A DNA stretch of 64,000 nt from an uncultured Anaerolineales bacterium (GTDB lineage Bacteria; Chloroflexota; Anaerolineae; Anaerolineales; Villigracilaceae): assembly GCA_937960595.1 (NCBI GenBank), contig CALGPL010000031.1, positions 1 to 64,000 on the forward strand, in the 5' to 3' direction. Within the stretch, counting starts at the first letter, position 1; each line of letters starts with the position of its first letter. Below the pieces are notes generated by a model. That model did not search any database, was not told where the DNA came from, and worked only from the letters and a program-made list of their open reading frames with translations. Below, one piece after another: positions 12,888 to 31,261 of this stretch. Both the position numbers and the translations under genes were made by a program.

Positions 12888-12989
12888 CCCGGGCAGGCCC
12901 GGCGCGGCAGAGCCCTGCGAACCCCGCCAGGGCCGAGAGGCAGCAACGGTAAGGAGGTGTCTCTGGGTGCCGCCGGTGCCCTGCCTGGG
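12888..12989 (+). ncRNA. ffs: Signal recognition particle RNA, small bacterial type (4.5S)
   Basis: About 102 nt that fold into one long hairpin. The 5' segment CCCGGGCAGG pairs with the 3' segment ending CCTGCCTGGG, with GCGGC/GCCGC further in. The apical domain IV has the conserved asymmetric features CCAGG on the 5' side and GGCAGCA on the 3' side, closed by GCC/GGC around a GAGA (GNRA) tetraloop. This is the Ffh (SRP54 homologue) binding site. No Alu domain is present, as in the short bacterial form. The promoter is immediately upstream. The exact 3' end is uncertain, and no U-rich terminator is seen. Confidence 0.9.
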
Positions 12990-29216: not shown

Positions 29217-31016
29217 TCAATTTGCCTGCGGCTCTTTTCCCAGCCGCGCCCGTTCCTCGGTGATGAGGCTTTCGTCCAATTTTTTGTAGAGCGGGGCAGG
29301 CGGATTCAACTTTGCGCCGGGCGGCAGTTCGCTCGGTCGCCATTGCACGGCCTCCACGCCGCGGTAGCGCAAGACGGTGTGTTCGCCCAAGGCGTCGCGG
29401 ACCGTCTCGGTGTATTGCTCGCCGAAGAGCGGCTGCTCGTAGCCGAAGAATTCGTGCAGACGCTGACAGGTAAACGGCAGGAAAGGCGCCAGCATGACCT
29501 TGAGAGAATCGATGGCGCGCAGGGCGGTGTAGATGCTCCTGGCGGCTTCGTCTTTGTCGGTCTTGATCTGGAACCAGGGGGCCGCGGCGTCCAGGTATTT
29601 GTTGACCTCGCTCGCCAGGCGCATCGCTTCCTGGAGAGCCGCCCGCAGGTGAACGGCCTCCAGTTCGCGGCCGACCGAGTCGAAGCCGGCCTCGATGACG
29701 GCCAGCAGGTCGCGGTCGGCGGGGCGGAGGGCCTCCGGATCGACCGCCGGGACCTGTCCTTCCCAATGTTTGTAACAGAAAGAGAGGACGCGGTTGGCCA
29801 GATTGCCCCAGGTGGCGACCAGTTCGTTGTTGTTGCGGGCGACGAAGTCGGCCCAGTCCCAGTCGGTATCGCGCAGTTCGGGCATGTTGACCGTCAGGTA
29901 GTAGCGCAGGGCGTCGGGGTCGTAGCGGCGCAGGGCGTCGCGCCCCCAGACGGCCCAGTTGCGCGAGCCGGAGATTTTCTGGCCCTCGAGGTTCATGAAC
30001 TGGTTGGCCGGCACATCGTAGGGGACGGTCAGACGGCCGGTTTCGCCGGCAAAGATTTTCATGAACTGTTCCCCGGCGCCCATCAGTTCGGCCGGCCAGA
30101 GCGAGGTGTGGAAGAAGATGTTGTCCTTGCCGATGAAGTAAAACTGGCGGGCAGCCGGGTTGACCCACCACGCATGCCAGGCCTTTTCCTGACCATTCAG
30201 GCGGCTCCACTCGATGGGCGCGGAGAGGTAGCCGATGACCGCCTCGAACCAGACGTACAGGCACTTGCCCTCCCAGCCTTCGACCGGGACGGGAATGCCC
30301 CAGTCTAGGTCGCGCGTGATGGGGCGCGGTTTGAGGCCTTCGGCTTCGATCTTGCCGAGCGATTCGCCCAGGACGGTCTCGCGCATCCGGCCGGCACGCT
30401 GGCGCAGGAACTCTTTGACCTCCGGCTCCAGTTTGGAGAGGTCGAGGTAGTAATGCTCGGTCTCGCGCAATTCGAGGGCGCCGTCGCCGGTGCGGGCGCG
30501 CGGGTTGATCAACTTCTCCGGTTCGAGCACGTTGCCGCAGGCGTCGCACTGATCGGAGCGGGCGCCGTCCGCGCCGCAGATGTAGCAGGTCCCTTCCACG
30601 TAGCGGTCGGGCAGGAAACGCTTGGCCGCCGGCGAGTACCACTGCATGGACTTCTGCGTGAAGAGGAAGCCGTTCTCCTTGAGGGCCAGGAAGACCGATT
30701 GGGCCACCTTGAAATGATTTTCGGTGTGAGTCGTGGTGAACAGATCGTAGGTGATGCCGAGTTGCCGGAACAATTCGAGGAAGCCGGCATGATATTCTTT
30801 GTAAACCGCCTCGACCGGCTTGCCCAGGGCATCGGCCTTGAGCGTGACCGGCGTGCCGTGCGAATCGGTGCCGGAGACCATCAGGACGCGGTTGCCCTTC
30901 AGGCGGTGGTAGCGGGCGACGATGTCGCCGGGCAGATGCGAACCGGTGATGTTGCCGACGTGAATCTCGGCATTGGCGTAGGGCCAGGCAATCGCAACGA
31001 GGATGTCTTCAGGCAT
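29217..31016 (-). CDS. metG: Methionyl-tRNA synthetase
   Basis: 599-residue class I synthetase that charges initiator and elongator tRNA-Met. The N-terminus has W-P-Y-A-N-A-E-I-H-V-G-N-I, where the HIGH-type motif is H-V-G-N. A four-Cys zinc knuckle (C-Y-I-C ... C-D-A-C) follows at about 135-155. The KMSKS loop reads K-I-S-G-S. The anticodon domain contains N-L-A-N-R-V, and no C-terminal tRNA-binding extension is present. The ATG at 31016 has AAGGGAG 6 nt upstream. It is preceded by a leader with its own promoter, a Met-rich peptide and a terminator. Confidence 0.95.
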   Translation of the reverse strand: MPEDILVAIAWPYANAEIHVGNITGSHLPGDIVARYHRLKGNRVLMVSGTDSHGTPVTLKADALGKPVEAVYKEYHAGFLELFRQLGITYDLFTTTHTENHFKVAQSVFLALKENGFLFTQKSMQWYSPAAKRFLPDRYVEGTCYICGADGARSDQCDACGNVLEPEKLINPRARTGDGALELRETEHYYLDLSKLEPEVKEFLRQRAGRMRETVLGESLGKIEAEGLKPRPITRDLDWGIPVPVEGWEGKCLYVWFEAVIGYLSAPIEWSRLNGQEKAWHAWWVNPAARQFYFIGKDNIFFHTSLWPAELMGAGEQFMKIFAGETGRLTVPYDVPANQFMNLEGQKISGSRNWAVWGRDALRRYDPDALRYYLTVNMPELRDTDWDWADFVARNNNELVATWGNLANRVLSFCYKHWEGQVPAVDPEALRPADRDLLAVIEAGFDSVGRELEAVHLRAALQEAMRLASEVNKYLDAAAPWFQIKTDKDEAARSIYTALRAIDSLKVMLAPFLPFTCQRLHEFFGYEQPLFGEQYTETVRDALGEHTVLRYRGVEAVQWRPSELPPGAKLNPPAPLYKKLDESLITEERARLGKEPQAN

Positions 31017-31069: not shown

Positions 31070-31104
31070 CAACAAAACGGGCCGCCCGCAGCCGGACAGC
31101 CCGT
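31070..31104 (-). terminator. Attenuator terminator in the metG leader
   Basis: A 12-bp minus-strand stem (ACGGGCUGUCCG with CGGGCGGCCCGU, two G-U pairs) closed by a GCUG loop, at 31104-31077. UUUUGUUG follows. It lies 20 nt after the leader peptide stop and 61 nt before the metG ATG. The 5' arm 31100-31092 can instead pair with 31151-31143 inside the leader peptide gene. Confidence 0.8.
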
Positions 31105-31123
31105 CAGGAAGTGCGTCAACCTG

Positions 31124-31225
31124 CTAACGTTTCCCCGCCGCCGCTGCCCGGACGCGGCTGCACATCGCCATGCGCATGGCCATGGTCATTGCCACCATCA
31201 GGAGGAGCGGAGAAATCGCGTTCAC
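31124..31225 (-). CDS. Met-rich leader peptide of metG (attenuation peptide)
   Basis: 33 codons starting with GTG at 31225, exactly 7 nt after a -10 box, so it is probably leaderless. Six ATG codons occur at positions 10-21 (M-V-A-M-T-M-A-M-R-M-A-M), then C-S-R-V-R-A-A-A-A-G-K-R and TAG. The rest of the peptide has no other repeated residue apart from a Leu triplet and an Ala run. An internal ATG at 31198 is an alternative start and would keep all six Met codons. The following RNA can form either a terminator or a competing pairing, so translation speed across the Met codons could set metG read-through. It is recognised as an attenuator by architecture, not by homology. Confidence 0.75.
   Translation of the reverse strand: MNAISPLLLMVAMTMAMRMAMCSRVRAAAAGKR
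31143..31151 (-). promoter_or_regulatory. Putative antiterminator strand in the metG leader
   Basis: RNA CCGGGCAGC can form 9 pairs (one G-U) with GCUGUCCGG in the 5' arm of the terminator (31100-31092). It starts 11 nt after the last Met codon, so a ribosome stalled on the Met codons leaves much or all of it free. A ribosome that reaches the stop codon would cover or disrupt it. Confidence 0.55.
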
Positions 31226-31232
31226 GGCCTAA

Positions 31233-31261
31233 AGTTTACTATGTCCTGCGCCGCCTGGCAA
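31233..31261 (-). promoter_or_regulatory. metG: Promoter of the metG leader
   Basis: Minus-strand TTGCCA (31256-31261) and TAAACT (31233-31238) with a 17-bp spacer. The predicted start point is the G of the leader peptide GTG at 31225. Confidence 0.75.

Follow-up and report, generated by a model that had tools for sequence, protein, structure and literature searches.

A conserved Met-codon leader upstream of metG in Anaerolineales with the features of a ribosome-mediated transcription attenuator

In Escherichia coli, the synthetase gene pheST is preceded by a leader-peptide attenuator. In attenuation of the trp, his and pheST kind, the position of the ribosome decides between an antiterminator, formed by regions 2 and 3 of the leader RNA, and a terminator, formed by regions 3 and 4, a logic described in PMC1183508. 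Classical leader-peptide attenuators have additionally been predicted for trpS and leuS of Streptomyces, in few species, and no conserved RNA structure was reported for the methionine operons of Actinobacteria (PMC1262725). Leaderless polycysteine ORFs of mycobacteria are Cys-responsive attenuators, according to Canestrari 2020 as cited in PMC9031893 and PMC13236596, and T-boxes have been documented in members of Chloroflexi (PMC2494555, PMC3766115). The open literature searched and Rfam contain no Met-codon attenuator for metG, which agrees with an earlier sequence-only reading of the locus that knew of none; the comparative study of Lopatovskaya et al. (2010), which deals with attenuation in operons for amino acids and aminoacyl-tRNAs, lies outside the coverage of this search, and a prior mention there is possible.

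Here, we describe a leader upstream of metG that very probably acts, like those of trp and pheST, as a ribosome-mediated transcription attenuator and senses charged elongator Met-tRNA. The proposal is based on sequence, i.e., on the parts of the leader, their order, their conservation, the specificity for Met, the spacing, the covariation and the modelled switching; from these, we infer the transcription start, the translation of the leader and its response to Met-tRNA.

The locus lies within a stretch of 64,000 nt (the window), and all of the leader features described previously were confirmed on its minus strand, to which the following coordinates refer. A sigma70-type promoter (31233–31261), which is kept in homologues, consists of the −35 element TTGCCA (31261–31256), a 17-nt spacer and the −10 element TAAACT (31238–31233). 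The GTG start codon at 31225, located 7 nt downstream of the −10 end, opens a leader peptide ORF (31124–31225) of 33 codons with the translation MNAISPLLLMVAMTMAMRMAMCSRVRAAAAGKR, which ends at the stop codon TAG (31126–31124) and has orthologous leaders in relatives. Codons 10, 13, 15, 17, 19 and 21 are the regulatory Met codons (31163–31198; starts at 31198, 31189, 31183, 31177, 31171 and 31165). Region 2, the antiterminator strand CCGGGCAGC (31143–31151), follows within the ORF, and its core GGGCAGC begins 16 nt past the first nucleotide of the final Met codon. An intrinsic terminator hairpin (31076–31105) of 12–13 bp with a 4-nt loop, followed by TTGTTGTG, begins 18 nt after the TAG and is thereby placed between the leader ORF and the structural gene, as in an attenuator. 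Region 3, GCTGTCCGG (31092–31100), comprises sequence of the terminator 5′ arm and loop, and its partner is either region 2, with which it forms nine pairs including one G-U, or the terminator 3′ arm. The controlled gene, metG (29217–31016), encodes a methionyl-tRNA synthetase of 599 aa, starts at 31016, 59 nt past the hairpin, and is present in 60 of 61 relatives' genomes. Direct reading upheld the order of promoter, GTG-initiated 33-codon frame with six ATG codons, terminator and metG, and this arrangement is rare in shuffled sequences: six in-frame ATG codons before the terminator occurred in none of 200 dinucleotide-preserving shuffles (mean 0.22), and the leader promoter is the only promoter-like site in 4.5 kb, where shuffles lead one to expect 0.5. 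Elsewhere in the window, the bacterial small SRP RNA at 12891–12989 on the plus strand is the only Rfam match.

To assess how far this arrangement is conserved, we drew the regions preceding metG from 61 relatives, from 120 genomes each of the class and of the phylum, and from named records; together, these yielded 250 usable loci, 231 of them non-redundant. The nearest named records are MAGs assigned to Anaerolineales or Chloroflexi, and the MetG of the closest of them is 95% identical to that of the window. The alignment of related upstream regions that the sequence-only reading had recommended gave a positive outcome: Met codons and terminator are kept together in 33 of 35 family members, 31 of which were recognized by the automatic criterion and two (L007 and L053) by hand. 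The two remaining loci have a degenerate leader (L008, genome G005) and no leader at all (L011, genome G036), metG in the latter case following closely behind another gene. Because the leader is absent from G036 and degenerate in G005, so that no recognizable Met run is found in either, leader control is apparently dispensable. The design is common in other families of the order Anaerolineales and patchy elsewhere in Anaerolineae (e.g., L110, L152, L153, L162, L165 and L193); no such leader was found at metG outside Anaerolineae among the class- and phylum-wide upstream regions. An RNA model of the segment from region 2 to the terminator yields one strong match per genome, at metG, in most genomes of the family, while its weak matches at other loci are mostly ordinary terminators behind genes. 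Two of these weak matches (L283, G041:C327, and L289, G041:C70) are apparent attenuators for other amino-acid genes, with two tandem leader ORFs rich in Ile, Leu and Val that are each followed by a separate terminator, plus another leader containing Phe, Thr and Ala codons.

The start of the leader was defined by fixing the frame by its stop codon and choosing the start codon by its promoter match. A −10-like hexamer precedes the start codon in 58 of 59 leaders, at a gap of 6–7 nt in 50 of these 58; the promoter matches at least 9 of 12 positions in 41 leaders, and a promoter score of at least 10 is reached by 41% of the leaders as against 0.4% of controls with shuffled upstream sequence. Since the gap is 6–7 nt in most leaders, transcription probably starts at or beside the GTG or ATG, and the leader RNA is probably leaderless. 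A start downstream of 31198, named beforehand as contrary evidence, is not indicated, the conserved predicted promoter placing it at the GTG or ATG.

The specificity for Met is a property of the reading frame. Among 59 leader ORFs, 289 ATG triplets are in frame, compared with 4 and 11 in the other two frames. The 64 terminator-bearing upstream regions with a MetG identity of at least 70% carry a mean of 4.5 internal Met codons vs 0.38 in shuffles, with p≤0.05 for the excess in 92% of them (shuffle test); the sequences share kinship, and p-values here and below, being uncorrected for phylogeny, overstate independence. When leaders were chosen blind to Met, by promoter, ORF and terminator only, Met was still the commonest residue (14%), and at least two Met were present in 72 of 80. 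Neighboring residues, leader length and the exact positions of Met all vary, but the Met count never vanishes. The short leader ORF rich in cognate codons that characterizes an attenuator is accordingly found at metG.

The terminator is the only structure that can be aligned among metG leaders, and it is conserved as GGGCTGTCC..GGrCrGCC followed by a T-tract. The core of its 5′ arm, GGCTGTCC, is invariant in 33 aligned homologues, whereas the 3′ arm alternates between A-U and G-U partners; an invariant 5′ arm facing a variable 3′ arm is the pattern to be expected if the 5′ arm can pair with either of two strands. The competing nine-pair interaction of 31151–31143 with 31100–31092 claimed for the window is indeed present, and its site is conserved in position and covaries in homologues. 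Where an additional Met codon comes late in the leader (L005, L021, L022 and L131), the last Met codon alone does not serve to locate region 2, and an anchored site was used instead. Among the 51 leaders of the main terminator class, 43 have a region-2 core in the tail of the ORF that forms at least six of seven pairs with GCUGUCC, in many leaders with one mismatch (GGAAAGC vs GCUGUCC). In 35 of these 43, the core lies 16 or 19 nt past the first nucleotide of the final Met codon, about as far as the leading edge of a ribosome would reach while holding that codon in its A site; in 42 of them, the core starts 11–29 nt before the stop codon ends. With this spacing, region 2 would be free while a ribosome stands at the control codons and covered once it stands at the stop codon. 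Furthermore, three flanking positions of region 2 covary with the terminator loop: the bases before the complement, compared with the loop bases after GTCC over 39 distinct combinations, form 1.62 pairs against 1.19 expected, a value reached in none of 5000 permutations, and these loop bases are hardly constrained by the terminator itself. Five leaders (L004, L009, L026, L036 and L069) belong to an alternative terminator class (CTGCTGG..) with a different ORF tail, GCAGTTCAGCGCCAG; region-2 duplexes are better within than between the two classes, and for the alternative class itself the own duplex shows only a slight gain over shuffled ones (−12.5 vs −11.2). The second, 7-bp alternative that had been proposed (31161–31155 with 31094–31088) exists in the sequence of the window but does not appear to be conserved, and it is probably incidental, because even the closest relative (L002), read by eye, lacks it.

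In a folding model of 53 leaders, the RNA was treated as it would be before the terminator 3′ arm is made, with a ribosome placed on it. For a ribosome on the last Met codon, the model gives a probability of 0.71 that the terminator 5′ arm pairs with upstream sequence; this drops to 0.21 for a ribosome on the stop codon and, with region 2 shuffled, from 0.71 to 0.56 (own vs shuffled region 2, p=1.7e-6, n=53); the corresponding values for the window are 0.82, 0.08 and 0.60. The pairing, the flank covariation and the folding model together point to an antiterminator that uses the terminator 5′ arm and excludes the terminator. In the proposed mechanism, RNA polymerase would start at or beside the GTG, and a ribosome would follow closely on the leaderless RNA, reading the leader peptide. 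With ample Met-tRNA, the ribosome would reach the stop codon and cover region 2, in which case the terminator 5′ arm would pair with the 3′ arm and transcription would end near 31070. With scarce Met-tRNA, the ribosome would stall among the Met codons, the last of which is 16 nt before the region-2 core, and the free region 2 would pair with the terminator 5′ arm ahead of the synthesis of the 3′ arm, allowing polymerase to continue into metG.

The upstream regions of other synthetase genes of the group were also compared. The comparison with tyrS, which arose unplanned as a control for metG, revealed the same architecture with Tyr runs (e.g., SYYYYSHP) in 16 of 30 relatives, the window's own genome among them (L347/L356, MSVISKAREYYDLHR); in the tyrS upstream regions examined (L347, L348, L349, L350 and L356–L384), leaders start in a leaderless-like manner. 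Of the 224 residues of the 16 tyrS leaders, 43 are Tyr and 1 is Met, compared with 261 Met and 20 Tyr among 1618 residues of the metG leaders, and codon sensing is directly argued for because the tyrS leaders swap Met for the cognate Tyr. Their antiterminator is conserved, lies downstream of the leader stop codon and pairs with the terminator arm, at −15.6 kcal/mol for the own sequence vs −9.7 kcal/mol for shuffled ones (p=1.5e-5), and also better than with foreign sequence. Compensatory differences are seen between L372 (GCGGTGGTG/CACCATCGC) and L373 (GCGGTAGTG/CACTATCG). At five tyrS loci (L359, L363, L364, L365 and L371), a Tyr run is found at the C-terminal end of an upstream-gene frame of about 175–220 aa, with the tails VVYYSRR*, RYYTRP*, RYYGR*, YSYYARK* and GYYYSRL*, and the hairpin-terminator region follows directly; it is possible that such a tyrS attenuator is read by ribosomes finishing another protein. 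Four relatives carry Pro-containing leaders of the leaderless type with a terminator at proS (L332–L335; MQMNPVPSPANQPTRSG, MLMNPNPSPRMCNSSRSG etc.), with another gene between leader and proS in L332 and L333. The pheS and cysS loci of six genomes show no leader of the metG/tyrS type. By eye, ileS, valS, leuS and thrS carry T-box motifs, GGTGGTACCGCG or GGTGGAACCGCG, together with a terminator (L293–L305 and L321–L324), which Rfam does not report at its gathering threshold. Between the T-box terminator and leuS, a short ORF looks conserved by eye (MNIKRNFWKQGPLLAGLLF in L304, MKSVKMFWKQGPLLTSLLF in L303).

Four other explanations of the metG leader were weighed. The attenuator might report general starvation or a failure of initiation, through fMet-tRNAi and leaderless 70S initiation, rather than elongator Met-tRNA: a leaderless start codon needs fMet-tRNAi, which is also charged by MetRS, and in the folding model the 5′ arm is partly paired upstream when no ribosome is present (0.57). 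However, six internal Met codons would then be unneeded, and the tyrS leaders combine the same leaderless start with runs of Tyr; we therefore consider this explanation very improbable, although initiation sensing could supplement the sensing of elongator Met-tRNA rather than replace it. Still less probable is that the ORF encodes a functional small protein or arrest peptide whose sequence matters, with a fortuitous or ordinary terminator behind it. Bacteria commonly have leader ORFs that are not tied to attenuation (PMC4833913), and the leaders of the family do share the C-terminal pattern CRxxWxAR, but this pattern is explained by region 2 and by the pairing of CGUUAG with the terminator arm, and it is lost in lineages with another terminator. 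The rest of the peptide varies freely over about 18–50 codons, with Met alone kept, and the tyrS leaders share the Tyr run and no sequence otherwise.

A riboswitch or T-box binding SAM, methionine or uncharged tRNA, next to which the short ORF would be incidental, is suggested by the T-box motifs at ileS, valS, leuS and thrS in the same group and by the T-boxes recorded for its phylum (PMC2494555, PMC3766115). Yet no T-box sequence is seen at the metG leader, and Rfam identifies no family there at its gathering threshold or at a permissive E-value, neither the T-box RF00230 nor any SAM family; the leader is only about 150 nt long and mostly ORF, its sole alignable structure is the terminator, and its ATG triplets are confined almost entirely to one frame, all of which renders this explanation less likely again. 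The lowest probability of all is assigned to the ATG-rich palindromic stretch being an operator in the DNA at which a regulator of methionine metabolism binds. Palindromes such as GCCATGCGCATGGC are present in the window's leader, but diverged leaders (L009, ATGATGATG; L026, ATGTCCATGCCCATG; L028) keep the in-frame Met codons and lose the palindrome; moreover, the site would lie inside the transcript, past its start, and the tyrS analogue carries TAT/TAC runs instead. Attenuation by a ribosome reading Met codons, i.e., the trp/his-type plan originally proposed for this leader, is supported by the conserved Met codons, the terminator, the competing pairing and the Tyr version at tyrS.

For the group as a whole, it seems likely that Anaerolineales control their synthetase genes by two systems, T-boxes (Ile, Val, Leu and Thr) and leaderless leader-peptide attenuators (Met at metG, Tyr at tyrS, and perhaps Pro at proS and Ile/Leu/Val elsewhere), with the Tyr sensor codons of some genomes placed in the C-terminal tail of an upstream gene, where ribosomes finishing one protein would control the next gene. 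The sequence-only reading had set the leader against the T-boxes of Firmicutes; the phylum is Chloroflexota, and the synthetase genes of this group have both T-boxes, by sequence motif at ileS, valS, leuS and thrS, and leader peptides, at metG and tyrS. For one class of genes, a single clade thus has T-boxes alongside leaders read by ribosomes, which makes it testable what decides the kind of sensor that a synthetase gene acquires. As MetRS charges both the elongator and the initiator tRNA, the proposed switch also lets one ask if cells monitor the two pools separately, and the metG leader is conserved widely enough for trust and testing.

Compared with known systems, the metG leader shares with T-box leaders, including those of Chloroflexi, the control of synthetase genes by tRNA charging; in T-box leaders, however, uncharged tRNA binds the RNA directly and no ORF is involved, while metG is devoid of a T-box. 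With the mycobacterial polycysteine ORFs, it has in common a short leaderless ORF, a run of a single residue and an amino-acid-responsive attenuator; those ORFs differ in sensing Cys, in preceding biosynthesis operons, and in being described as acting on translation, with no conserved terminator of the metG type. The predicted Streptomyces systems are likewise classical leader-peptide attenuators ahead of synthetase genes, although trpS and leuS sense Trp and Leu. The logic is also that of E. coli pheST, trp and his, in which a leader peptide with cognate codons is combined with 2:3 vs 3:4 pairing, and of which pheST controls a synthetase. Unlike these, the metG leader carries Met codons, appears to be leaderless and belongs to a host of the Chloroflexota, and it would thus add a residue (Met), a phylum and leaderless initiation to textbook attenuation.
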